In this document: piece by piece, positions 1,101-20,134 of the stretch
Layout: each line of letters starts with the position of its first letter
Numbering within the stretch: the stretch's first letter is position 1
Source: a virus
Reading direction: 5' to 3' (one strand)
Length of the DNA stretch: 25,164 bases
IMG/VR virus record: IMGVR_UViG_3300027801_000149
Span: 1 to 25,164 of that record
The notes under the pieces: model-generated
Databases searched by the model: none
Seen by the model: only the letters and a program-made list of their open reading frames with translations
Told to the model about the DNA's origin: nothing
Translations under genes and position numbers: made by a program

Positions 1101-4100
1101 ATGCCATTATCTACTAATTTTAATGTTACGCCGTATTATGATGATTATGATGAAACCAAAGGATATTATCGCATACTTTTTAAGCCAGGTTATGGAATCC
1201 AAGCGAGGGAGCTAACCCAATTACAAACTGCTTTACAAAAGCAAATAGAACGGGTTGGTGCTCACAGTTTTAAAAATGGTAGTAAAGTTCTAGGTGGAGA
1301 CATAACATTAGATACGGATGTACATTCGCTTCAACTAGAGATGCAATATCTCGGCACTAATATAAATGCCGCGTCCTTTATAGGAAAAACTGTTATAGGT
1401 GAAACCTCTAATGCAAGAGGAAGGATTGTAGCGTCTCAGGCACCTACTAATCTGTTACAACCTATTTTAATGTTTCACTATTTGGGTGGTGATATTTTTG
1501 TTGACGGCGAAATAGTACAAGATGAAGTTGTAGCTCCAGCTGAATCAGAAGTCTATGCAACAACTGTTAGTCTAGACGGACCCTCCGCTATGTCTAATGC
1601 TGTTGCAAACGGCTCTGTTGTTAGTATTGATAATGGTGTTTTCTTCCTTGATGGTAATTTTGTTCTTTGTGTTGCAAATACTCTAATTCTAGATACTGCT
1701 AATACTACACCTTCTGGCAGAATTGGATTAGAAATAGCAGAAACAGTTAAAACAAGTGATGATGATATGTCATTATTAGATCCTGCAGATGGATCTTTTA
1801 ACTATGCTGCACCTGGTGCAACTCGACTTGATATAGCATTATCTTTGGTTAAAAAAGAAATTGATCTTGCCGATCCAATCGCAGCTGTTGCTGATCCAAA
1901 TTTTATACAATTATTAAAAATTGTTGATGGAATTAAACATCAAGCGGTTGAATATCCTATCTATACCGCAATTGAAAAAACCCTTACTAAAAAAGCACAT
2001 CAAAAATCAGGTGACTTTACTATAACGCCTTTTGACCTGAAATTGGAACCAAATAGAGGATTATCAGGAGAAACTGCAAATGCAGGACTTGCTGGAACAA
2101 GTGTATATGGAAATAATACACGGTTTACTACAGAGTTGAATATAGGTGATAAAATTTATCTGGGGTCTAATGTCACATGTGCTGAAGTTAGTACAATAGC
2201 AAATAATTCAAGATTAACAGTTACTTCTACACTTGATGCTGGAACATCCGGATTAAAAATTTATAATGAATCCGAAATTCAAGCAGGAGTAAGTTCAGGA
2301 AAAGCACAAATTGATGGTTATGAATATGAAAGTGTCTCTACTAAATTTCTTGATATTGATAAAGGTCGTGATACTGATATAGATTCTGATTATGGTATTG
2401 GAGTTGAAGTCGGAAATTATGTTGTAGTTGATAATATGAATAAATTTTTTGATGTTGGTACACACGAAATACTTCATTTACATAATGTAAAATCTGTAAA
2501 TATTAATGTAACAAGTAATACAGAATATTTGGCAACTCAAACTGGTACCGCAAGAGTCCGTAGTTTAAAATGGGATTCTTCTACTGGAAATACATCAGCT
2601 TCCGATTCAAATCATTCAAATTATAGAACATATCTTTATGATATTGATACTTCTAATTCAGTTGGAGGTACAGTTGGAGCTGGAAATGCAGACAAAACAA
2701 TAGTTCAACTAGATACCGCATCTACTTCTTATGTGAATAATACCTATCTTGGATCAACTATTACTGTTAATACTGTTAATGGAATTGATAGTACTAGTGA
2801 CCTTAGATCAATAGATACATATGTCTCTAATTCTACGGGACATTGGGCTACTGTTAATTCGGCAATTTCTCAAGCCACTATTACGAATAGTACTTATGAT
2901 ATAGCATTTACTATCGCAGATACTCAATCAATCACAGTTGCAGAATATTCAATAACTCTTCCAGGTGCTGCTGCTACTATAAATTCTTATGCTGATATTG
3001 CATCCACAGGAAAAGTTGGTGGAGTTGATACTGGAAAATGTTTATTAAATGATTCAAATATAAATTCTTTAGTTTACTCATTGCCACAAAGTCCCGTTAA
3101 AGCAACGGTGATAACAGCAAATACGGTAGACTATATGTTTAAACTAGTCCAAACAAATCTTACTTCTGATGCTGCAGGTAAATTTACAATAACTTTATCA
3201 AATCCTAATTATGAATTTCTTCCAAAATCTGGAACATTAACTCATAAACAAGCACGAGAAGGATATATTGTAGTTGTTAAGGAAGCTGATGGAGGAACAG
3301 TAACTACTGCACAAACATTTGTTAATGCAGTATCTTCAGGTACTTCTATTCCTAGTAATGATAGCGCAATAGCAAGAGATTTAATTGATGGTGAATGGTT
3401 AGACCTTGGTGCCCAAGATGACGCTGCTGCTTCTATTAGACCTGTTGCCGTCGCTGTAGATAAACATACAGTAGAAATACATTGTAATACTTCTTCTGCA
3501 TTTACCGCAGATATTATATATTGTGCTTCAAGTTCTACAACAAGAAAAGAGCCGGGTCCAAGAACAAAATCTTTAGTCTCAGGTAACGGTTCTCATTTAG
3601 GTTCTTATGCAGCCGGACTTCCCGTAACAGATTTAAATAGTGGACAATTTTATTTCACAGCTCCTAATTTAACACAAACTGCTACGGATGAACTTGTTGT
3701 TTCAGATGCATTTAATTTAGTAAAAGTTGTTGATTCTGGAGTAGAATCTATTCCAGTAACAAATACAATGATGACTTTATCTGCACATGATATTACTCAC
3801 ATGTACGAATTTGATACAGGTCAAAGAGATGGTTTTTATGATCATGCAAATATTAAATTGAAAGCTGGTTATCCTGGCCCTATTGGACAAATGGTATGTG
3901 TGGTGGATTATTTTGAATGGGATGGAGCAGTGGGATATCATTCAGTCGATTCTTATCCTACAGCCGGAGTATGGAATCAAAAAGATGTCGCAAGTACGAA
4001 ACCATTTGATTATACGACAATACCAGAATTTACTAGTCCTTCATCAGGTGAGACATTTAAACTAAGAGACTGTATAGATTTAAGACCCCGAAGAGAAAAT

Positions 4101-7100
4101 GAATCTAATGATTTTAGAGCAAATACTGCTGCACTTGAAGCAATACCAACTCCTTTACCAAGTGGTACGTTAACGGCTGATGTTCAGTATTATCTTCCCA
4201 GAGTAGATAAAATCACATTAACTAAAGATCGAAAATTTAAAATTTTAAAAGGTACACCTTCATTAAATCCTGTGACACCTCCTGATGATGAAGATTCAAT
4301 GACATTGTATTCATTAAATATTCCAGCATATACTTTTAATCTTTCTGATGTAATTACACGATATGTTGATAATAAACCATTTTCTATGCGTGATATTGGT
4401 AAATTAGAAAAACGAATCGAAAGATTAGAATATTGTACTTCATTATCTTTATTAGAAAAAGAAACTGCAGCAAGGAGTTTTTCTACCAGTCAGGGAATTG
4501 CATTTAAAAATGGAATATTAATAGATTCATTTAGCGGCCATTCTGTTGGAGATGTTTTAAATGATGATTATAATATTTCAGTAGAATATGCGTCTAAAGA
4601 AATGCGACCGGGATATTATTATGATAATCATAAATTTACGTATGATGTGTCATATAGTAATAACGTGACAAAAACTGGAGATTTAATTACTCTTCCTTAT
4701 ACTGATGTAGATTTTATACAACAACCCATGTCAAGTAATACAGTTGTAACAAATCCATTTAATATTGTTACCTTTGTAGGAAACTTAAAAACATATCCAT
4801 CATCAGATGTTTGGTTTTCTCAAAATGCTAGACCTGAGATTGTGACAAATCTAGAAGGACAACATGATAATTGGAAATTAAGTGGAGGAAGAAAAGGTTT
4901 TGGTTCGCAATTCAATGATTGGGAAACAAATTGGAAAGGTATAGAAAAAACTGAACCCCCTATTCTAGGAACAGAATCTAACGGAAAGACTTATGAAGAA
5001 AAAAGGATGACCGCAGAATTAGATGATGCTAAAACACGAATAGGTATACAACCTACACCACCAGATGCCATTCTTAAAACTGTAGGAAAGAAAATCGTTG
5101 ATACTACAGTTAGACCTTATATAAATGGACAAAGAATACAATTTCTTGCAAAAGGATTACGTCCTCTTACAAATGTATATACATTTTTTGGTTCAACTGA
5201 TGTTGGAGCAAGTACACGACCCGCGACATCACTACTTCTAGGAAGTATAGATGGTACATTTGAAGTGGGTGAAACACTTGTTGATACGGCAAATAATCAT
5301 AGTACAATTTTAATGACAACGGATGTAGTTTCTAATGTAGCTACAGTTTTGATTTCTAATGTATCTGGTAATGTTTCTTCTACTACAGCAAGTCCTTATG
5401 GTGCTGCAAATGGAATGACTATTGGTACAAGAGAAGTAATGGCTGATACTATTGGAGATGTAACTCATGTATTTGCTACAGGAAATACTATTACGGGTGG
5501 TACAAGTGCCGCGACTGCAACTATTACACTCTCTTCAAAATACTCTCTTGGTGCAGCTAATGGTATTATGAGAACAGATAAAAATGGTCAAATGGCCGGA
5601 GAAGTATTCATAGAAGATGGTGTATTTAGAACAGGAGATAATCTTCTTAGAATTACAGATAGTAGTTTAGACAATGTTGCTGCTACTGTCGCAGTAGCTG
5701 AAACAAAATGGTCAGCTAAAGGTGTATTAGATTCTCATTCAGCAGAATATGTTTCTACAAGAGAGGCAATTATTCGTAGAGAAGTAGCAAATGAAGAAAA
5801 ACTTTTCACCGATACTACTGTTCGAGAAACAGAAAAAACAAATTGGTTAAATCCTATAGCACAAACATTTTTTGTAGATCCACAGAATTTTCCAAAAGGA
5901 ATATTCATAAGAAGCGTTGATTTATTTTTCTCTGCAAAAGATGTATATTTACCTATAACTTTACAAGTAAGACCGGTTGTTAATGGATTTCCAAGTTCTT
6001 CTAAAATATTACCATTTAGTGAAGTAACATTAACTCCAGAATTTGTTAATGTTAATGCAATAGCAAATTCAGCATCTGCTTTGACTTATACAACATTTAC
6101 ATTTGAATCTCCAGTTTATTTGGCACCAAATGAGTATTCTCTTGTAGTAGGAACAAATAGTACAGATTATAAATTACATTTGGCGGAAGAAGGTTTTACT
6201 GCTATCGGAACAGATGATACTAAAATTTCTAAACCGAGTTTTATAGGTTCACTTTATAGACCACAAAATTCAAATTGGTGGGGAACTAATCTAGATGAAT
6301 ATTTAACATTTAGGATGAAGCGTGCAGATTTTACAATAGGTGCTGGTGGAAACACCAATTTCGCAAAAATGGTTGTACATTGCAACGGTGCTTATGGAAA
6401 TACATCAAACGTAGAAATGGATTATTTTAATGTTGGTACTTCAACATTAGATTTTAGTGATACAGAATCAACTTGGAAATATGTTGCTTCTAATAATTCT
6501 TTTACTATGAATGATGTTCTAGAAGCTACCGCAACTTGGACGGAATTTACTCCTAATAAAAATCATAAATTGATAGACAGAAAGAGACTTGTTGCTACCT
6601 CTAATGGTACATTTAGAGTAAGAACAGAAATGATATCAGCAAATTCTCATGTTTCTCCTACAGTAGACCTTGATAGATTAAATGTGACTTCTGTACATAA
6701 TATCGTTGATAATGGAGAGTTATCAAATAAAGATATAACAGTAATGACTAGAGGATCAGGATATGAAAATGTGGAACCACAATTTGTCACTGCTGTATTA
6801 ACTGATGGAGGAACAGAAAACGTTGCTTCATTAAATGTTCATGTTTCTGTATCAATGAATGTAAATTCAAATTCAACTACAGTAACTAGTGGAAATACTT
6901 CATATACTGTTGATGCTGGAAATCCTGGCCAATTTATTGTGGGTGAAGCAGTAATGGCGAATACTGCCGCAGATGTTAATGCGAATAATAGTGGTATTTA
7001 CGGAGTTATAGATTCTGTAACATATTTAGATGGGGATTCTGCTGCAAATACTGCTACTGTTACTATTAAAACAAGTGCGAATAATCAAGGAGTTTTTGGT

Positions 7101-7733
7101 AATGGTATATTAATTTGGGCCAATCCAAATGCACAGACAAATGCTGCGACAGGATTAGAGACATCATGTAGTAATACCAAGATGCAAGTATTGATATCAA
7201 ATGGTTATGTTTCAAATGTTGTAGTAGTTGATACAGGAACAGGATATACAAAAAATCCATCAATTAGCATTTCGGGATTAACTCCTGTTGTGGGATCTAT
7301 TAATGCCGCAGTACAATGTACAGGAGAGGAAAGAAATAGTGGAGGCCCAATGCTTTCTAAATATATTTCTCGTAGAGTAACCCTTAAAGATGGATTTGAT
7401 GCTTCTGACATGAAAGTAGTATTAAGTGCTTATAAGCCAAAAGGTACTGATATTCATGTTTATTTCAAGCCTCAATCAGCTTCAGATCCAGAAAAATTTG
7501 ATTTAAAAAATTATATATTGATGGAACAAGAGACAAGTCCAGGAACTTTCTCTAAGGGTAAAAATGATTTTCAAGAATTTGTTTATAAAACAGCAAATGA
7601 AAACTCAAATTATACCTCAAATAATGCACTATATGAAACGTTCAAAACCTTTTCAATAAAAGTTGCATTTGTAGCCAACACCACTTATGATATGCCAAGA
7701 GTAAAAGACTTAAGAGCAATAGCATTAGATTAA
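1101..7733 (+). CDS. Giant virion structural protein, DUF4815-like, probably baseplate/tail periphery
   Basis: This 2210-residue protein is the largest in the window. Its N-terminus (PYYDDYDETKGYYRILFKPG, then QARELTQLQTALQKQIERVG) matches the DUF4815-type structural proteins of marine T4-like phages, which lie next to baseplate genes. The middle is a long run of Thr/Ser/Asn-rich beta segments. A predicted helical stretch around residues 1095-1125 (IGKLEKRIERLEYCTSL) could be a short coiled coil. Several units of the FxxGExxxxxxSxA type occur (about nt 1360-1560, 5240-5350, 5460-5700, 6925-7075). The C-terminus (IHVYFKPQ ... FKTFSIKVAFVAN ... PRVKDLRAIALD) is a conserved ending seen in large marine phage structural proteins. 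The start has an AGGA sequence upstream (about 1089). It is most likely a baseplate-attached arm or outer wedge component taking the place of T4 gp9/gp10; that placement is inference from gene order. Confidence 0.75.
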   Translation: MPLSTNFNVTPYYDDYDETKGYYRILFKPGYGIQARELTQLQTALQKQIERVGAHSFKNGSKVLGGDITLDTDVHSLQLEMQYLGTNINAASFIGKTVIGETSNARGRIVASQAPTNLLQPILMFHYLGGDIFVDGEIVQDEVVAPAESEVYATTVSLDGPSAMSNAVANGSVVSIDNGVFFLDGNFVLCVANTLILDTANTTPSGRIGLEIAETVKTSDDDMSLLDPADGSFNYAAPGATRLDIALSLVKKEIDLADPIAAVADPNFIQLLKIVDGIKHQAVEYPIYTAIEKTLTKKAHQKSGDFTITPFDLKLEPNRGLSGETANAGLAGTSVYGNNTRFTTELNIGDKIYLGSNVTCAEVSTIANNSRLTVTSTLDAGTSGLKIYNESEIQAGVSSGKAQIDGYEYESVSTKFLDIDKGRDTDIDSDYGIGVEVGNYVVVDNMNKFFDVGTHEILHLHNVKSVNINVTSNTEYLATQTGTARVRSLKWDSSTGNTSASDSNHSNYRTYLYDIDTSNSVGGTVGAGNADKTIVQLDTASTSYVNNTYLGSTITVNTVNGIDSTSDLRSIDTYVSNSTGHWATVNSAISQATITNSTYDIAFTIADTQSITVAEYSITLPGAAATINSYADIASTGKVGGVDTGKCLLNDSNINSLVYSLPQSPVKATVITANTVDYMFKLVQTNLTSDAAGKFTITLSNPNYEFLPKSGTLTHKQAREGYIVVVKEADGGTVTTAQTFVNAVSSGTSIPSNDSAIARDLIDGEWLDLGAQDDAAASIRPVAVAVDKHTVEIHCNTSSAFTADIIYCASSSTTRKEPGPRTKSLVSGNGSHLGSYAAGLPVTDLNSGQFYFTAPNLTQTATDELVVSDAFNLVKVVDSGVESIPVTNTMMTLSAHDITHMYEFDTGQRDGFYDHANIKLKAGYPGPIGQMVCVVDYFEWDGAVGYHSVDSYPTAGVWNQKDVASTKPFDYTTIPEFTSPSSGETFKLRDCIDLRPRRENESNDFRANTAALEAIPTPLPSGTLTADVQYYLPRVDKITLTKDRKFKILKGTPSLNPVTPPDDEDSMTLYSLNIPAYTFNLSDVITRYVDNKPFSMRDIGKLEKRIERLEYCTSLSLLEKETAARSFSTSQGIAFKNGILIDSFSGHSVGDVLNDDYNISVEYASKEMRPGYYYDNHKFTYDVSYSNNVTKTGDLITLPYTDVDFIQQPMSSNTVVTNPFNIVTFVGNLKTYPSSDVWFSQNARPEIVTNLEGQHDNWKLSGGRKGFGSQFNDWETNWKGIEKTEPPILGTESNGKTYEEKRMTAELDDAKTRIGIQPTPPDAILKTVGKKIVDTTVRPYINGQRIQFLAKGLRPLTNVYTFFGSTDVGASTRPATSLLLGSIDGTFEVGETLVDTANNHSTILMTTDVVSNVATVLISNVSGNVSSTTASPYGAANGMTIGTREVMADTIGDVTHVFATGNTITGGTSAATATITLSSKYSLGAANGIMRTDKNGQMAGEVFIEDGVFRTGDNLLRITDSSLDNVAATVAVAETKWSAKGVLDSHSAEYVSTREAIIRREVANEEKLFTDTTVRETEKTNWLNPIAQTFFVDPQNFPKGIFIRSVDLFFSAKDVYLPITLQVRPVVNGFPSSSKILPFSEVTLTPEFVNVNAIANSASALTYTTFTFESPVYLAPNEYSLVVGTNSTDYKLHLAEEGFTAIGTDDTKISKPSFIGSLYRPQNSNWWGTNLDEYLTFRMKRADFTIGAGGNTNFAKMVVHCNGAYGNTSNVEMDYFNVGTSTLDFSDTESTWKYVASNNSFTMNDVLEATATWTEFTPNKNHKLIDRKRLVATSNGTFRVRTEMISANSHVSPTVDLDRLNVTSVHNIVDNGELSNKDITVMTRGSGYENVEPQFVTAVLTDGGTENVASLNVHVSVSMNVNSNSTTVTSGNTSYTVDAGNPGQFIVGEAVMANTAADVNANNSGIYGVIDSVTYLDGDSAANTATVTIKTSANNQGVFGNGILIWANPNAQTNAATGLETSCSNTKMQVLISNGYVSNVVVVDTGTGYTKNPSISISGLTPVVGSINAAVQCTGEERNSGGPMLSKYISRRVTLKDGFDASDMKVVLSAYKPKGTDIHVYFKPQSASDPEKFDLKNYILMEQETSPGTFSKGKNDFQEFVYKTANENSNYTSNNALYETFKTFSIKVAFVANTTYDMPRVKDLRAIALD

Positions 7734-7737
7734 AAAC

Positions 7738-7962
7738 ATGGGAAAACAAATACAAACAGACGATCCAAGATTTGTTAGAGATGTGGAATCCAAAGCCTTA
7801 TTGAGTACAGATCATAATGCTTTACAACAACATAGACAAGAACGCGTATATTTTGAGAACCAACGGAGAGACATAAATATAATGAAAGATCAAATAGAAC
7901 ATTTAACAAAAGTAACTGAAGAAATGTTAGAAATAAAAACTCTTCTTAGGAATTTCAAATGA
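7738..7962 (+). CDS. Small helical protein between baseplate and fibre genes
   Basis: A 74-residue charged protein beginning four bases after the giant structural gene and ending in an ATGA overlap with the next fibre gene, so the two are probably translationally coupled. No clear Shine-Dalgarno is visible, which suggests reading by coupling from the upstream gene. The second half (DINIMKDQIEHLTKVTEEML and a following hydrophobic-spaced stretch) has regularly spaced I/M/L residues typical of an amphipathic helix or short coiled coil. There is no signal peptide or membrane segment. I do not recognise a named family. Position suggests a minor virion component or a fibre assembly or oligomerisation factor. 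The reading frame is well supported by its tight packing; the function is unknown. Confidence 0.65.
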   Translation: MGKQIQTDDPRFVRDVESKALLSTDHNALQQHRQERVYFENQRRDINIMKDQIEHLTKVTEEMLEIKTLLRNFK

Positions 7963-8651
7963 CAGCAAATGTTGAACTAACGGATACGTTTGGAACTTTC
8001 CGATCTAAAAGTAATGAACTTGTAGCAATGACTCATGATGGAATGAATAATTTCATCAAGGTATTGGATACTACAGACTCAACGAGTAATATTACTGGTT
8101 CGATTGTTACTGCAGGAGGTATTGGAGTAGCTGGAAGTGGAACTATCGGTGGAAATTTTAATGTTCATGGAAATCTCCATGCAAACGGAGCTATTTCAGC
8201 AGATGGAAATTTACAACTTGGGGATGCCGCAACTGATACAGTAACTTTTAGTGCTGATATAAATTCACACATTATACCTGATATCGATGATACTTATGAT
8301 TTAGGTTCATCTGGACAAAAGTGGAAAGACCTTTATGTGGATGGTGTATCTTATCTTGATGCTATAAACCTTAATGGTACTGCAATTTCTGCAACGTCTG
8401 ACCAAATTAATTATAATGTTATTAGTGCATTAGGAACAGCAGAAGTAAGTAAGACTGTTACAAGTGATGCAGCTGGTAATGTTATTTTTGTGGATGGGGC
8501 ATGTAATATAGATATAGCAAGTCATGACGGTACAAATGGATTAAAACTGGGTGGAACACTAGTTACAAAAACAGCTGCTCAGATTAACTCTGCCGCAACA
8601 AATGAGGAAGCGACAGCAGTTGCCGTTTCAATGGCAATAGCATTAGGATAA
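7959..8651 (+). CDS. Tail fibre-like protein (N-terminal paralogue of the S74 fibre at 15053)
   Basis: A 230-residue protein. Residues 1-120 are clearly paralogous to the N-terminus of the fibre at 15053: both start MTANV-LTDTF and share NELxxMT, GMNNFIKVLDT, GGIGV, GNLxxGDAxTDxVTF and ADINSxIIP. This is likely the attachment part. A DLGSSGQKWKDLY unit (residues 114-126) is a common repeat of phage fibres near their distal domains. Residues from about 152 to the end form a small module that recurs as the separate protein at 8691. Unlike its paralogue it has no C-terminal S74 chaperone, so it is either a short fibre or a shortened descendant. Start ATG overlaps the previous stop (ATGA). The fibre call is firm; the partner is unknown. 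Confidence 0.7.
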   Translation: MTANVELTDTFGTFRSKSNELVAMTHDGMNNFIKVLDTTDSTSNITGSIVTAGGIGVAGSGTIGGNFNVHGNLHANGAISADGNLQLGDAATDTVTFSADINSHIIPDIDDTYDLGSSGQKWKDLYVDGVSYLDAINLNGTAISATSDQINYNVISALGTAEVSKTVTSDAAGNVIFVDGACNIDIASHDGTNGLKLGGTLVTKTAAQINSAATNEEATAVAVSMAIALG

Positions 8652-8667
8652 TTTCGTTTAAAAGAAA
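8523..8667 (+). repeat. First copy of a local tandem duplication (fibre 3' end plus remnant of next gene's 5' end)
   Basis: Bases 8523-8572 are identical to 8793-8842 and bases 8607-8652 are identical to 8877-8922, both at a 270-nt offset. Bases 8653-8667 then equal 8944-8958, the early codons of the gene at 8936, at a 291-nt offset. The change in offset is exactly 21 nt: the stretch 8923-8943, carrying the ribosome-binding region and ATG of the downstream gene, is missing from this copy. It reads as an ancestral duplication of a fibre 3' end plus next-gene start, followed by a 21-nt deletion here. Confidence 0.85.
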
Positions 8668-8675
8668 TATAAATA
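8668..8675 (+). promoter_or_regulatory. Putative T4-type late promoter box TATAAATA
   Basis: A perfect match to the T4 late promoter -10 element (recognised in T4 by gp55 with gp33 and the sliding clamp gp45). It sits in the 39-nt gap between the fibre at 7959 and the small gene at 8691, 15 nt before the ATG, giving a very short leader containing AGGA. It lies exactly at the end of the duplicated block. Only three such boxes were found on the + strand in the window. Confidence 0.6.
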
Positions 8676-8690
8676 TAGGAACAACAACTT

Positions 8691-8921
8691 ATGTCACAAG
8701 CAAGAAATATCGCTAATTTTGGTGTACATGCAACTACTCCTGCTGGTGCGGTGACATTCCTAGATGGTGCAACGGATGTAGATATTGCTCAACATGACGG
8801 TACAAATGGATTAAAACTGGGTGGAACACTAGTTACAAAAACTGCAACTGAACTTAATGCCACGGCATCAAATGAAGAAGCGACAGCAGTTGCCGTTTCA
8901 ATGGCAATAGCATTAGGATAA
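8691..8921 (+). CDS. Stand-alone copy of a fibre C-terminal module
   Basis: A 76-residue protein whose body repeats the last ~75 residues of the preceding fibre: QHDGTNGLKLGGTLVTKTA and the last 15 residues (from NEEATAVAVSM to the stop) are identical to it. The N-terminus MSQARNIANFG differs and resembles the opening of small tail proteins in other marine phages. Over parts of the gene the DNA is identical to the upstream copy (50 and 46 nt blocks), while flanking parts are diverged, so the pair looks like old paralogues with recent exchange or duplication. AGGA lies about 12 nt before the ATG and a late promoter box just upstream. It may be a cap or trimerisation module acting beside the fibre at 7959. 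Real expression is likely but unproven. Confidence 0.6.
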   Translation: MSQARNIANFGVHATTPAGAVTFLDGATDVDIAQHDGTNGLKLGGTLVTKTATELNATASNEEATAVAVSMAIALG

Positions 8922-8958
8922 TAAAGGATTAAAAAATGGCAAATTCGTTTAAAAGAAA
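8793..8958 (+). repeat. Second copy of the tandem duplication, with intact downstream gene start
   Basis: This copy keeps the 21 nt (8923-8943) lost from the first copy, so the downstream gene at 8936 has its AAAGGATT ribosome-binding region and ATG. Blocks 8793-8842, 8877-8922 and 8944-8958 match the first copy exactly; 8843-8876 is diverged from 8573-8606. Confidence 0.85.
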
Positions 8959-9268
8959 AACTTCAGCCGGGATTGGAACTGGTTTCATGCCTATAGACAG
9001 TTATACGGTTCCTGGATCGACAGAAGTTACTGTAATTGGAATGACTCTAGCAAATGTCACAGCCAGTCCCATTTTGGCTGATGCATCATTATTTGACGGA
9101 GCATCATATATCTCTATCGTAAAACAGGCCCCTATTCCAGCGGGTGGTGCATTAGTTGTTGTCGGAGGAGATCAAAAACTTGTAATGGAAGCAGGAGATA
9201 GTATGAGAGTTAAATCTGATACCGCATCTTCTATAGATGTAATAATGAGTATTTTGGAGATAACATAA
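8936..9268 (+). CDS. Small beta-rich virion/fibre-associated protein
   Basis: A 110-residue protein with no signal peptide or membrane segment. It is built of alternating short hydrophobic strands: SYTVPGSTEVTVIGMTLAN, then IPAGGALVVVGGDQKLVMEA, then GDSMRVKSDTASSIDVIMS. The last part (KLVxxxGDxxxVxSxxAxxxDVxxS) matches the ending of the 116-residue protein at 12669 (RLVLSGTDALCVATASAADV and VVSYI), so the two are paralogues of a compact beta-sandwich type. Similar small proteins lie among fibre genes in marine T4-like phages. The start has AAAGGA upstream; the gene at 9270 starts two bases after its stop. Its first codons are also present as a startless remnant at 8653-8667. Probably a minor structural or fibre-cap protein; exact role unknown. 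Confidence 0.65.
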   Translation: MANSFKRKTSAGIGTGFMPIDSYTVPGSTEVTVIGMTLANVTASPILADASLFDGASYISIVKQAPIPAGGALVVVGGDQKLVMEAGDSMRVKSDTASSIDVIMSILEIT

Positions 9269-9269
9269 T

Positions 9270-10199
9270 ATGTCAATGATAGGCAGACAGCCAGCACGAG
9301 CAGCAATGACTGCGGATGATATTGGAAATAATACTATAGATTCAAATAAAATAATTAATTCTTCTATAGTAGCAGCAGATATTGGTGCTCTTGATGCTTC
9401 AGTAATGACAGGTGTTATGCCAGTTGGTGTTACAGGAGGTTCTGGATTGGATGCTATATCAGGAGTTGGAGGTTCCACTTTTACAGCTGTAGCAGATGGA
9501 GCAATAGCGGCTGGAGATGAATGCATTGTAACCTCGGCAGGAAAACTAGCAAAGATTGCCTCATCTACGTCTGATGTGTATTTTGGCCCAAGTACAGCTG
9601 GATTGTTTAATGATTGGAGTACTGGCAATGGATTTAGGCAGTATGAAATCTACGACAAGTTGTGGAACCACGCACAATCTCTGAGTCCCAATCCTTTCGC
9701 TTCTCAAGATGCCATGAAACAAGCAGCATATAATTCTTTTACTAATGCAAGTTGGGGAATAAATTTCCACCAGGACGGAAGTGGTGGCTATGGAAATATG
9801 ACGCAAATTCATGTTAATACGAGTGGTGTGTATAGTGATTATTATTTGACTGTAAACAGTATCACTTGCATCTCAGCTACTGGTAGTGCGCCAAATACCA
9901 CCAATCTTTCCACCCTTTTCAGCTGGCTGACGTATAAGCAGTTGGTGTTTAGATTTCAATATTCAGCTACAGTAACAAATGTGACTGCAACAAATTTTTG
10001 TGGATGGGCCGATGGTGCATATGCAGATGGAGTTAGTGCTACAATTAATTTAAAAGGTACTATAGAAACAGGCCTAACTGGTTTGACGACAGGATCATCA
10101 TATTATATACAGAAAAACGGAACTTTAAGTACGACAACTGATGATCCTTCGGTTTTAGCTGGTGTTGCACTTGCAACTAACAAATTATTGGTAGGATAA
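9270..10199 (+). CDS. Modular tail fibre/adhesin with swappable central domain
   Basis: A 309-residue protein in three parts. Residues 1-65 carry fibre-type NTIDSNKIINSSIVAADIG repeats, typical of phage fibre N-termini. Residues 70-99 (VADGAIAAGDECIVTSAGKL) match the N-module of the propeller protein at 13029 (IADGAISDGAKCILREDGKV). Residues 236-309 (WADGAYADG, GLTTGSSYYIQKNGTL and the final strands) match the last 75 residues of the same protein. The central part, residues ~100-238, is unique, rich in Trp, Tyr, Phe and Asn, and its codons are visibly richer in C than the flanks, as expected for an exchanged receptor-binding domain. It is followed after 9 nt by a tail assembly chaperone-like gene, suggesting a fibre-chaperone pair. 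No enzyme motif was seen. Confidence 0.7.
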   Translation: MSMIGRQPARAAMTADDIGNNTIDSNKIINSSIVAADIGALDASVMTGVMPVGVTGGSGLDAISGVGGSTFTAVADGAIAAGDECIVTSAGKLAKIASSTSDVYFGPSTAGLFNDWSTGNGFRQYEIYDKLWNHAQSLSPNPFASQDAMKQAAYNSFTNASWGINFHQDGSGGYGNMTQIHVNTSGVYSDYYLTVNSITCISATGSAPNTTNLSTLFSWLTYKQLVFRFQYSATVTNVTATNFCGWADGAYADGVSATINLKGTIETGLTGLTTGSSYYIQKNGTLSTTTDDPSVLAGVALATNKLLVG

Positions 10200-12262: not shown

Positions 12263-12619
12263 ATGTCAAAGAAAATTACAGAATTAGGAAAATTGTCCAT
12301 TGCGGCAAATACAGATGTTTTACTAATTGTAGAAAATCCTAGTACATCTCCCACAAACAAATACATTGAAGTCGGCGACTTGATGGACAACTCTGGAGCT
12401 ATGGCTCTTCCGGGTCTTGATATTGACGGCGGAACAGACATCGGTGCACCAATTATTGATATAGATTTATTTGTTGTTGATGATGGAGCAGGCGGCACAA
12501 ATAGAAAAGCTACAGCTTCTCGGGTCAGAGATTTTGTTTATGAGGGTACAGAAAATAAAAAAATAAAACAAAAAGGTGCTTGTTTACAAAGTTCAACACA
12601 TCAAGGATTATTTTTATAA
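12263..12619 (+). CDS. Short fibre-repeat protein, possibly a truncated fibre
   Basis: A 118-residue protein made of two repeats of a fibre unit: LSIAANTDVLLIVEN with TNKYIEVGDLM, and GADxxDLFVVDD-like DLFVVDDGAGGTNRKATASR with VRDFV. The unit DIDGGTDIGA followed by VDDGAGGTNRK is common in long marine phage tail fibres, where many copies are strung together. Here the protein stops soon after, with a Lys-rich unrelated tail (ENKKIKQKGACLQ) read from an A-rich stretch (12547-12573). This suggests either a minimal N-terminal attachment protein or a fibre shortened by a slip or deletion in the A-run. The gene has its own late promoter region and a good ribosome-binding site, so it is probably expressed. 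Confidence 0.6.
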   Translation: MSKKITELGKLSIAANTDVLLIVENPSTSPTNKYIEVGDLMDNSGAMALPGLDIDGGTDIGAPIIDIDLFVVDDGAGGTNRKATASRVRDFVYEGTENKKIKQKGACLQSSTHQGLFL

Positions 12620-12668
12620 TTTAATTTGATTTTTGGTTAATAAAAAAAATTTTAAGGAGAAATAAAAA

Positions 12669-13019
12669 ATGGCTATACCAAGCGGAAGTGGAACAGAAGT
12701 TTTAAAAGTTGCGTTTACATCAGGAGTTACTAATGCAGAAAGCAAAATTTTGACTGGTGTTGCAAATCATATCTATACAATATTAAGTGTTACAATATGT
12801 GAAACATCTGGAAATGCAGAAACATTTGACATGTATGTTGATGATGATGCTGGAGGAACAGATTATGAAGTTCTTTCTGATAGCGCACTTGGCGCAAATG
12901 AAACCTTTGTATATAACGATAGACTTGTCTTATCTGGAACAGATGCACTTTGTGTCGCGACTGCAAGTGCGGCAGATGTTGACATTGTAGTTTCATACAT
13001 AGATCAGGATTGGACATAG
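12669..13019 (+). CDS. Small beta-rich virion/fibre-associated protein, paralogue of 8936
   Basis: A 116-residue protein with strand-rich sequence: EVLKVAFTSGVTNAESKILT, IYTILSVTICETSGNAETFD, then YNDRLVLSGTDALCVATAS and VDIVVSYIDQDW. The ending pattern (RLVLxGTDALxVxxxSAxxVDIVVSYI) is shared with the 110-residue protein at 8936, and both lie directly before a modular fibre with shared ends (9270 and 13029). The gene order small beta protein plus modular fibre is therefore repeated. Strong ribosome-binding site (AAGGAGAAAT). The preceding 49 nt are AT-rich with no clear signal. Likely a fibre-associated cap or connector; no enzyme motif. Confidence 0.65.
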   Translation: MAIPSGSGTEVLKVAFTSGVTNAESKILTGVANHIYTILSVTICETSGNAETFDMYVDDDAGGTDYEVLSDSALGANETFVYNDRLVLSGTDALCVATASAADVDIVVSYIDQDWT

Positions 13020-14988: not shown

Positions 14989-15056
14989 TGAAAACCATTG
15001 ATGAAAAATTAGCTGCCAAAAATGCATACTACAAAGATAAAAGGGATAACTCATGA
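14988..15056 (+). CDS. 22-residue microprotein linking two genes
   Basis: The frame reads MKTIDEKLAAKNAYYKDKRD plus two residues. Its ATG overlaps the preceding TAA (TAATG) and its TGA overlaps the next ATG (ATGA), so it exactly bridges 14692 and 15053. It could be a short leader peptide that carries ribosomes to the S74 fibre gene, or a tiny charged helix. AGAGGAA before the ATG would serve as ribosome-binding site. Very short, so moderate confidence. Confidence 0.45.
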   Translation: MKTIDEKLAAKNAYYKDKRDNS

Positions 15057-16456
15057 CAGCAAATGTAGCCTTAACTGATACTTTTGACCAATGGCGAGTC
15101 AAAGATAATGAACTTATTATAATGACTCAGCCTAGTGGAATGAATAATTTCATTAAGGTACTTGATACAGCAAATTCTACTACACCTACTTCGGGTTCTA
15201 TAATTACCCATGGCGGTATAGGAGTAGGAAAATCTGTACATATAGGAGAAGATTTAAAAGTCTGGGGCGATATTAACTGTGTAGGTGATACTACAGTAGG
15301 TGGTAATCTTATATTTGGTGACGCCACAACAGATCAAGTAACCTTTGAAGCAGATATAAATTCTGATATAATTCCAAATACAACTCTTGTATTTGATTTG
15401 GGTAATACCACCCATTTCTGGGCAAATACTTTTACAGGACATTTGACAGCTTCACAAAAAGTAGATTCAGGTAAACCTGCTCTTACTGTTGAAGCGATAG
15501 ATGTTGATCAAATAGCAGTAGATATAAATGCTTCTACTGAAACCGCAAATGCTGTAGATATTTCAGCAGATTCTATTACTACTGGTACCGCATTTAAACT
15601 TTCTTCTGGTGCCATTACTAGTGGTATAATGATGGATCTTGTTAGTGCTGCAACAATTACAGGAACTGGACTTAATGTTGCATTAGATTCATTAACTACT
15701 GGTAAAGTTGTGAATATTTCTGCAGACGGACTTACTTCAGGTTCAGCTCTTTATGTTGAATCAAATTCAGCTGATGTCACCGCAAGACATTTAATAAGTT
15801 CAATTAATAACAACGCCGCAGCAGCTGGAGCAATCCCAATTTATGCTCAACAAGATGGTGTAGCACCATGTGGACAATTTGCCGGAACAACTTCTCTTGT
15901 AGTTCCTTGTGGTACTGATGCTAATAGAGGTACTGGAGTACAGGGAGGAATTAGATTTAATAATCAATTTAATTTCTTTGAAGGATATACTGGGTCTGTA
16001 TGGACACAAATGGGTGCAGTAGAAGATGTGGATGAAGACACCCATGTACGAGCAGAAACTTCTCCTGGAACGGATAATGATGAATTAAAATTTACAACGG
16101 CTGGAACATTACGAATGACTATTGAAGCCGATGGAGATGTTATTGTTGCTGGGACAATTACTGAACAGTCTATGAGAGAACTAAAAACAAATATCTCAAA
16201 TATTGAAAATGTTCTACCTTCTGTTTTACAAATGCAAGGAGTGAAATACGATTGGAAAGATGAAACTAAATCACAAGATAGAAATTATGGATTTATTGCA
16301 GAAGATGTAGATCAAATTTTTCCAGATTTGGTATCCCATGATGATAGTGGAAAGCCAAAAGCTATTGCTTATACAAAAATGACTGCTATTCTTTTAGAAG
16401 CTATTAAAGAACAACAAAATCAAATAAACGAATTAAAATCTAAAATAGGAGTCTAA
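15053..16456 (+). CDS. Tail fibre/spike with C-terminal S74 intramolecular chaperone
   Basis: A 467-residue protein. Residues 1-125 are the attachment region shared with the fibre at 7959. Residues ~140-245 contain repeats of about 18-20 residues (DSITTGTAFKLSSGAITSGI, DSLTTGKVVNISADGLTSGS), consistent with a triple-stranded beta-helix shaft. From residue 373 (SMRELKTNISNIENVLP, then VKYDWKD, NYGFIAEDV, ALAYTK-like AIAYTKMTAILLEAIKEQQN) it carries the peptidase S74/endosialidase chaperone domain, which trimerises the fibre and cleaves itself off at the conserved Ser. The usual Ser-Asp is Ser373-Met374 here, followed by the expected R-x-LK. The C-terminal helix should form the trimeric coiled coil. 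Start ATG overlaps the preceding microORF stop. High confidence in domain; cleavage is by family knowledge. Confidence 0.85.
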   Translation: MTANVALTDTFDQWRVKDNELIIMTQPSGMNNFIKVLDTANSTTPTSGSIITHGGIGVGKSVHIGEDLKVWGDINCVGDTTVGGNLIFGDATTDQVTFEADINSDIIPNTTLVFDLGNTTHFWANTFTGHLTASQKVDSGKPALTVEAIDVDQIAVDINASTETANAVDISADSITTGTAFKLSSGAITSGIMMDLVSAATITGTGLNVALDSLTTGKVVNISADGLTSGSALYVESNSADVTARHLISSINNNAAAAGAIPIYAQQDGVAPCGQFAGTTSLVVPCGTDANRGTGVQGGIRFNNQFNFFEGYTGSVWTQMGAVEDVDEDTHVRAETSPGTDNDELKFTTAGTLRMTIEADGDVIVAGTITEQSMRELKTNISNIENVLPSVLQMQGVKYDWKDETKSQDRNYGFIAEDVDQIFPDLVSHDDSGKPKAIAYTKMTAILLEAIKEQQNQINELKSKIGV

Positions 16457-18889: not shown

Positions 18890-18892
18890 TTG

Positions 18893-20134
18893 ATGAAAGT
18901 TGTGATAGTCGGAGGTGGTAATGCAGGGTGTATAACTGCATTAGAATGGGGATTTATTTCTCAAACTTGGGAAAGATCAAGTCCACTTGAAGTTGAATTA
19001 ATTTATGATCCAAATGATAAACCTATACCCGTAGGACAAGGTACCGCTAGTGATTTATCTCAACTTATCTATAAACTCGGTTTTGACTGGTATAATAATC
19101 CTATAGAGGCTACACCAAAAGCTGGAATTATATTTGAAGACTGGGGCAAGAAAAATCATAAATTTATAAATTACTTAGAAAATGCAGCCATGGCAATGCA
19201 TTTCGACCCTCCTAATTTTCAAAAATATATATTAAATTCTGGTTTATTTAACATAATTGAAGATCGTATTGATGATATATCAACAATCGATGCTGATTTT
19301 ATATTTGATTGTACAGGTGGTAGACTGAATAATGATACAGAAAATTACAATAAACTTATTTCTACAGTAAATTCTAGTATAATAAGTAGAGTAAAGGGGA
19401 GAGACTATACACAGCTATGGACTCGGGCAGTGACTACTCCTGATGGATGGACATTTATAATACCACAGACCGACAATACAACAATTTATGGTTATGTGTA
19501 CAATAATCACATAACAGATGAAACCACGGCAAGAGAAAATATTAATAAATTATTTAATATAGAACCTGATGATATGATGAATCGGGTAATAAATTTTGAT
19601 TCATTTGTTGCTAAAGAAGTTATATCGGAACATAGAATAATTAAAAATGGTAATAAATTAGCTGCTTTTGATCCTCTTGACGCTCCTGCTACATCTTTAC
19701 ATATAATGGTTGCAGAATGGTGTCAAAATTTTATTTCTCATAAGATGAATTCTCCAGCTGAATTAGCTGGGACCCAAGATATTGTGGAAAAAGGCATATT
19801 AGATTATGTACATGAAATTGAAACGTTTCAATTATGGCATTATCAGTTTGGATCTAAATATGATACTCCATTTTGGGATTATGCAAAAACATTAGCTGAC
19901 AATTATTTCAATGATAATGAATATGGTAAAGAATTTAAAAATAGAATTAAACTTATAAACAACTTTTCAGAGCTTGATCTTTGTTCTATATTTTCTAAAA
20001 CTCTGCGAGTGCCAGCAGTTCTTGATGATACTCTTTTAGAATATAAAGGAATTTCTTATACCGGTAGTGATTTATTTTATGGGCCATGGGATGCAAAATC
20101 TCTCCAAAATTGGTATACTAACGTTGTTAATTGA
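18893..20134 (+). CDS. Flavin-dependent (tryptophan-type) halogenase family enzyme
   Basis: From the ATG at 18893 it has 413 residues; the TTG at 18890 would add one residue and is less likely. It opens with an FAD-binding motif VVIVGGGNAGCITA (GxGxxG: G7, G9, G12). IPVGQGTASDL (45-55) replaces the usual VGExTxP segment. ATPKAGIIFEDW carries Lys76, in the position of the catalytic Lys of PrnA-type halogenases that forms the haloamine. The family hallmark WxWxIP appears as W186-T-F-I-I-P191, with Trp changed to Phe. DPLDAPATS (260-268) takes the place of the PLES region with its catalytic Glu. These FADH2-using enzymes halogenate aromatic substrates; a cyanophage relative (VirX1) is described as iodinating diverse substrates. 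It lies among tail genes, cotranscribed with the Cys-rich protein. The family call is good; substrate and halide are unknown. Confidence 0.75.
   Translation: MKVVIVGGGNAGCITALEWGFISQTWERSSPLEVELIYDPNDKPIPVGQGTASDLSQLIYKLGFDWYNNPIEATPKAGIIFEDWGKKNHKFINYLENAAMAMHFDPPNFQKYILNSGLFNIIEDRIDDISTIDADFIFDCTGGRLNNDTENYNKLISTVNSSIISRVKGRDYTQLWTRAVTTPDGWTFIIPQTDNTTIYGYVYNNHITDETTARENINKLFNIEPDDMMNRVINFDSFVAKEVISEHRIIKNGNKLAAFDPLDAPATSLHIMVAEWCQNFISHKMNSPAELAGTQDIVEKGILDYVHEIETFQLWHYQFGSKYDTPFWDYAKTLADNYFNDNEYGKEFKNRIKLINNFSELDLCSIFSKTLRVPAVLDDTLLEYKGISYTGSDLFYGPWDAKSLQNWYTNVVN

Follow-up and report, generated by a model that had tools for sequence, protein, structure and literature searches.

According to the available part of the report on phage Pam3, gp25 attaches to gp24 at its distal moieties, as a 3:3 complex (PMC9608196). 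The Mu fibre and its assembly protein are mentioned in the accessible text of a second report, which also describes, for Alteromonas phage A5/V22, a fibre with a cognate downstream chaperone as a module common to distantly related phages (PMC10579305). In the T5-like phage DT57C, the C-terminal regions of LtfA and LtfB are related in both amino acids and nucleotides, as stated in the portion of the source at hand (PMC4728585).

The locus explored here resembles the Mu and Pam3 systems in that a gene lies directly 3' of a fibre gene, where, as far as the available descriptions go, the Tfa product acts on the distal part of the fibre. It is unlike them in that the recurring element is a terminal peptide (the tail) of about 10 residues. 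Moreover, the partner encoded downstream is a predicted jelly roll, entirely of beta structure, and lacks the helical trimerisation domain given for gp25 in the available text. As in A5/V22, a fibre end and a downstream gene are shared as a module, whereas the A5/V22 chaperones are built of an alpha-helical body and beta-hairpin tentacles, according to the part of the report that was accessible (PMC10579305). Two fibre proteins of one phage with related C-termini recall LtfA and LtfB; unlike the tail considered here, the shared LtfA/LtfB C-terminus is described in the available text as a predicted autocleaved chaperone domain (PMC4728585). No account of a pairing between tail and partner was found in the literature searched, outside of which most subscription journals lie.

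Structure of the Two-Copy Repeat

The window, that is, the whole stretch of 25,164 nt that was analysed, is an IMG/VR fragment. Genes for baseplate wedge, neck, sheath stabiliser and small terminase were present, and the window was hence assigned to a myovirus structural cluster. The source is a marine virus infecting bacteria, with two adjacent fibre-type genes that carry an identical short end-tag. The features of the locus are given in Table 1.

Table 1. Features of the tail-partner locus in the window.
Feature	Positions	Strand	Basis
Fibre-type gene, 230 aa, first tail carrier	7959–8651	+	ORF; matches to PHROG 36222 and 697
C-terminal unit, copy 1	8461–8652	+	80% identity to 8731–8922 over 192 nt
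Terminal tail 1, VAVSMAIALG and stop	8619–8651	+	Translation; tail survey
15-nt relic of the partner gene start	8653–8667	+	Equal to 8944–8958; kept in L082, L083 and L084
Late-promoter-like TATAAATA	8668–8675	+	Sequence
76-aa gene (MSQARNIAN...), second tail carrier	8691–8921	+	ORF; homologues in L083, L084 and L086
C-terminal unit, copy 2	8731–8922	+	Comparison with copy 1 and relatives
Terminal tail 2, VAVSMAIALG and stop	8889–8921	+	Translation
21 nt absent after copy 1 (ribosome-binding region and partner ATG)	8923–8943	+	Also follows the single copy of L085
Partner gene, 110 aa, predicted jelly roll	8936–9268	+	ORF; structure model
Cassette common to window and L085, 90.8% identity	8775–9449	+	blastn
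Next fibre-type gene	9270–10199	+	Start (to about 9449) within the cassette; remainder resembles L086 3402–4353

A sequence-only reading of this DNA had reported two copies at an offset of 270, and the exact matches 8523–8572 = 8793–8842 and 8607–8652 = 8877–8922 were reproduced. The change of the offset to 291, at which 8653–8667 equals 8944–8958 (TTCGTTTAAAAGAAA), was found as described, and the 21 missing nt (AAAGGATTAAAAAATGGCAAA) do contain AAAGGA, which resembles a ribosome-binding site, as well as the ATG at 8936. No microhomology was seen at the ends of this gap. The homology is wider than first described and extends over the 192 nt of each unit. The repeated segment encodes a C-terminal unit ending in SMAIALG and the stop codon, which closes both the fibre gene and the 76-aa gene.

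The leader between these two genes contains 15 nt of the partner gene's start region, followed by TATAAATA at a distance of 15 nt 5' of the ATG at 8691. This octamer occurs in the window at 8668, 12211 and 18362 on the + strand and nowhere on the − strand. In sequence and in position, shortly 5' of a late gene, the copy at 8668 is a putative T4-type late promoter. When the leader (39 nt) was dinucleotide-shuffled 60,000 times, a match of at least 15 nt to the first 60 nt of the partner gene arose in 7 cases. None of 1901 39-mers tiled over the window, with those starting at 8600–9010 left out, gave a match longer than 11 nt, and chance is thus an unlikely origin of the 15-nt match. The relic shows that a SMAIALG-type fibre end was at one time immediately followed by a gene resembling the partner gene, which is the order observed in L085. 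The leader pattern CGTTTAAAAGAAATATAAATA was found in only three viral contigs, all of them the known relatives.

Relatives With One or Two Copies

The double copy, the gap and the relic were also present in contigs 3300009705_000401, 3300032360_000058 and 3300001683_000197, which rules out misassembly. One locus, L082, is nearly identical to the window, with 7 differences over the compared bases of a locus of 8770. In L083 and L084, the junction is the same letter for letter through the relic and TATAAATA, and 1 or 2 differences follow later in the leader. Over a flank of 8.5 kb, longer stretches of the L083 and L084 contigs (L163 and L162) are 93.0 and 95.9% identical to the window, respectively. 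The fibre of both loci (4092–4961 in each) has 289 aa compared with 230 in the window, and the difference of 59 aa looks like one more internal repeat unit.

The single-copy relative with the predicted junction that the earlier reading had called for does exist: in L085, a fibre ending in SMAIALG is followed by TAATAAAGGATTAAAAA and ATGGCAAATTCG. In L086, the fibre and a homologue of the 76-aa protein are present in the same place, both ending in IAMSIVFGG, and the next gene (MANPNIV...) is a distant relative of the partner gene. A DNA search for relatives of the locus among named phages gave one weak match. No relative of the 76-aa protein was found in 50,697 phage records, and a profile search for further relatives of its gene returned 4 loci, all of them known already.

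Age of the Copies and Probable Exchange of the Cassette

Over the last 192 nt, copy 2 is 92–93% identical between the window, L083 and L084, and copy 1 is 85–87% identical between them. The two copies inside one genome are 80% identical in the window and 77 and 83% in the others; the copies therefore cluster by position more than by genome. Since copy 2 is closer between genomes than to its own copy 1, the duplication predates the lineages of the window, L083 and L084. The duplication had been called recent, and this cannot be upheld, because contigs that are 93–96% identical over the flank share the junction and the within-genome identity is below that between genomes. Nor is the growth of a fibre module caught in the act, as had been proposed, given the same junction in the two diverged contigs L083 and L084; the arrangement was inherited and is neither fresh nor a fault of assembly. 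Some blocks are confined to the copies of a single genome. CATGACGG is common only to the two window copies among nine sequences compared, and about 30 nt are shared by both L084 copies only. Such blocks, including 8523–8572, look like the product of later gene conversion in the sequences compared.

The proposed history of a duplication followed by a deletion stood in part. The fibre 3' end and the start of the next gene do occur twice, and the first copy lacks the 21 nt that include the start codon. However, a simple local tandem copy leaves 8668–8730 unexplained, as the repeat begins only at 8731. This stretch holds the promoter-like site, the start and the first codons of the 76-aa gene, and the second copy is accordingly not wholly derived from upstream DNA. 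The 76-aa gene has its own start, found also in L086, and is thus no simple local duplicate.

Between the window and L085, the cassette (675 nt) stands out against a background of 72.8% identity for 4111–8129 and 79.9% for the fibre end 8409–8652. The similarity between the window and L086 ends at 8845 and resumes at 9461. The partner protein of L085 is 85% identical to that of the window, compared with 81% for L083 and 79% for L084, and the flank ranks L085 and L083/L084 in the opposite order. According to the cassette identity and these opposite rankings, a cassette that comprises the tail, the partner gene and the beginning of the following gene moved between lineages. The repeat is read as the mark left by a cassette of tail and partner that was transferred from one phage to another, and as a history of the DNA this is, in outline, well supported. 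In the course of it, an L085-like arrangement may have gained the 76-aa gene, or an L086-like one may have received the cassette.

Tail Type and Partner Type Across Phages

The relationship between tail and partner was explored in two sets of loci. For set A, relatives were sought with the partner protein alone, and 95 loci were taken, namely 80 viral contigs of 107 relatives and 15 named phages hand-picked from 53 records. An A-type tail (AIALG-like) was carried by the gene directly upstream in 91 of 93 evaluable loci. The exceptions were S-SRM01, in which a B-type tail is paired with a MANxFK partner, and Melnitz-3, whose ending GVALG is of neither type. Set B comprised 80 loci of 557 relatives of the sister family MANPNIV, among the matches listed; B-type tails (IVFG-like) were found in all 77 evaluable loci and A-type tails in none, within that listing. 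Both tail patterns were drawn after many tails had been seen, and that for B is loosely defined. After removal of the tails, the upstream proteins formed 14 blastp clusters in A and 6 in B, and 29 of 94 A-class bodies had a B-class homologue. The independent cases are far fewer than these counts, because many loci are near-duplicates.

The search was also carried out from the tail, with a VA(L/M/I)AIALG-type stop pattern and 80 loci listed of at least 120 stretches. A partner-family gene was located downstream in 69 of the 80 loci, 2 lay at contig edges and 9 had none, among the matches listed. Locus L064 also belongs to the set chosen by partner, and some other contigs recur from the partner search. 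In five of the partnerless loci (L274, L301, L317, L326 and L329), the tailed gene ends in ALNKAVAMAIALG and stands directly 5' of a gene like that for the head-tail adaptor of the window; their available stretches contained no partner relative at E below 0.05. One further partnerless locus is an open frame of 25 codons and probably due to chance. In an earlier count over 1383 distinct ORF ends, the tail pattern occurred at 88, of which 78 lay before a MANxFK-type gene; the count is descriptive only, since the loci were chosen partly by partner.

The gene after the partner starts with M, up to three residues and I/L/V/M-G in 41 of 59 distinct starts, and 10 further starts are MGKSK-like. The same loose pattern was found in 50 of 436 other genes of those loci. 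With such a start tag, the partner is conceivable as a connector between two fibres.

Predicted Fold of the Partner

The AlphaFold2 model of the partner, obtained with 55 sequences, was confidently all-beta (mean pLDDT 96.0, pTM 0.86). Among the matches listed, the best solved structure was that of the phage KHP40 cement protein, a trimer (7dou; Z 10.0, rmsd 2.7 over 101 residues), followed by nucleoplasmin, endospore-appendage and TNF-like proteins. The jelly-roll matches, with Z of 7–10, were spread over TNF/C1q-like proteins, nucleoplasmins and small virus capsids, and the Foldseek TM values for the cement and TNF/C1q-like matches were 0.43–0.58. ExsF with its anchor peptide (9h3d) matched the model at E 8.7e-4, and predicted viral structures matched at TM up to 0.93, several of them named virion structural protein. 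In its predicted fold, the partner resembles the KHP40 jelly-roll cement protein and may be related to TNF/C1q-like proteins. The likeness is one of predicted fold; a PDB sequence search with the partner family gave nothing significant (best E 0.38). Profile matches were limited to two PHROGs without a known function, 26609 and 1276, and no Pfam family reached its cut-off. The partner gene lies directly downstream of a fibre-type gene, as do those of the Tfa and T4 gp38 type, and no known fibre-chaperone family, including Tfa, was matched in Pfam or PHROGs at the cut-offs used.

In a fused chain of tail, read-through linker and partner, the tail was a helix of low confidence (pLDDT 61 and 59 for the first two 10-residue blocks), and docking of this low-confidence tail on the partner was not seen. 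Reading through the stop codons at 21 loci likewise gave no confident contact between tail and partner. We infer the binding of the tail to the jelly-roll partner from the pairing of their types.

Interpretation of the Tail-Partner Pairing

The tail type tracks the partner type, and the 675-nt cassette lies above background. On these grounds, the best explanation is exchange of the tail and the partner gene between phages as a cassette, with the tail as a docking peptide, and as a whole it is probable rather than secure. Two adjacent proteins bear the same unit and a SMAIALG tail of the type that matches the partner. Recombination through the repeated DGTNGLKLGG unit would move the tail and the partner together, so that both proteins would end with the matching tail. 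Through one illegitimate junction, 15 nt from the beginning of the partner gene may have remained behind the fibre stop codon, beside the promoter-like site of the 76-aa gene, and gene conversion may later have homogenised parts of both units. The tail would be a short docking peptide recognised by the jelly-roll partner, which could serve as a fibre-tip cap, a connector or an assembly factor. Operon inheritance alone could also give the adjacency of tail and partner.

A local tandem duplication of the fibre end and the next gene's start, older than thought and followed by the 21-nt deletion, would fit the collinear copies, the relic kept by the first of them and the single copy of L085. It is unlikely, because the start and leader of the 76-aa gene precede the repeat, the 76-aa homologue of L086 has a different tail and the cassette is shared horizontally with L085. 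Mere conservation, in which selection or gene conversion kept two ancient paralogous units alike and the 15-nt match is fortuitous, agrees with the last 35 nt or so of the unit, which are identical in all six copies of the window, L083 and L084, and with the blocks common to copies within genomes. This is highly improbable given the rarity of the match in the shuffles, its conservation and its location exactly where copy 2 runs into the partner gene.

The tail may also be unrelated to the partner, forming an end for fibre folding or trimerisation that travels with it only as an operon neighbour. The modelled helix without partner contact and the five loci with the tail before an unrelated gene point in this direction. 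However, the tail class splits with the partner class despite many unrelated upstream body clusters, and homologous bodies bear either tail. In both L086 and the window, moreover, the two tailed proteins match the partner, even the one that is not adjacent to it. A tail without relation to the partner is consequently doubtful, though it is the least improbable of these alternatives.

Cassette exchange with a docking tail may be part of a wider code, a tentative proposal with somewhat less than an even chance of holding. Short C-terminal tails of AIALG-type, IVFG-type and perhaps more types, borne by differing fibres, would pick the jelly-roll connector. The connector would then receive the next fibre, whose start is often tagged M-x-Y-I/L-G. 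The window, L085 and L086 would record a change of code in which two proteins switched tail with the partner. If the tail is a docking tag, marine phage fibre modules could be read from sequence, both as to which proteins join and in what order. The sites at which natural recombination swaps fibre modules without breaking assembly would be readable as well. A likely function would, in addition, be provided for an unnamed but widespread family of virion proteins near the fibres of Pelagibacter, Synechococcus, Rhizobium and Roseobacter phages.

Additional Observations

A second member of the partner family (12669–13019, profile E 4e-5) follows a gene ending in STHQGLFL, whose L086 counterpart ends in NATHHALAL; the region 12263–13019 may be a third tail-partner pair. 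A promoter-like TTGACA...TATAAT was observed between the tailed gene and the partner gene in L074 (about 4941–5000) and in L174 (HMO-2011, about 2940–3000). The 2210-aa protein encoded at 1101–7733 ends in RAIALD, and 7716–7733 differs at only two bases from the final 18 nt of the fibre gene, a DNA likeness for which 0.03 matches are expected by chance. The RAIALD ending is also present in L086 and was taken for a separate conserved end. The fibre genes 15053–16456 and 7959–8651 share an N-terminal region (MTANVxLTDTF...), which suggests two fibres with the same attachment end. A relative of tryptophan halogenase (18890–20134; PHROG 2928, E 6.5e-56) is located inside the structural gene cluster.
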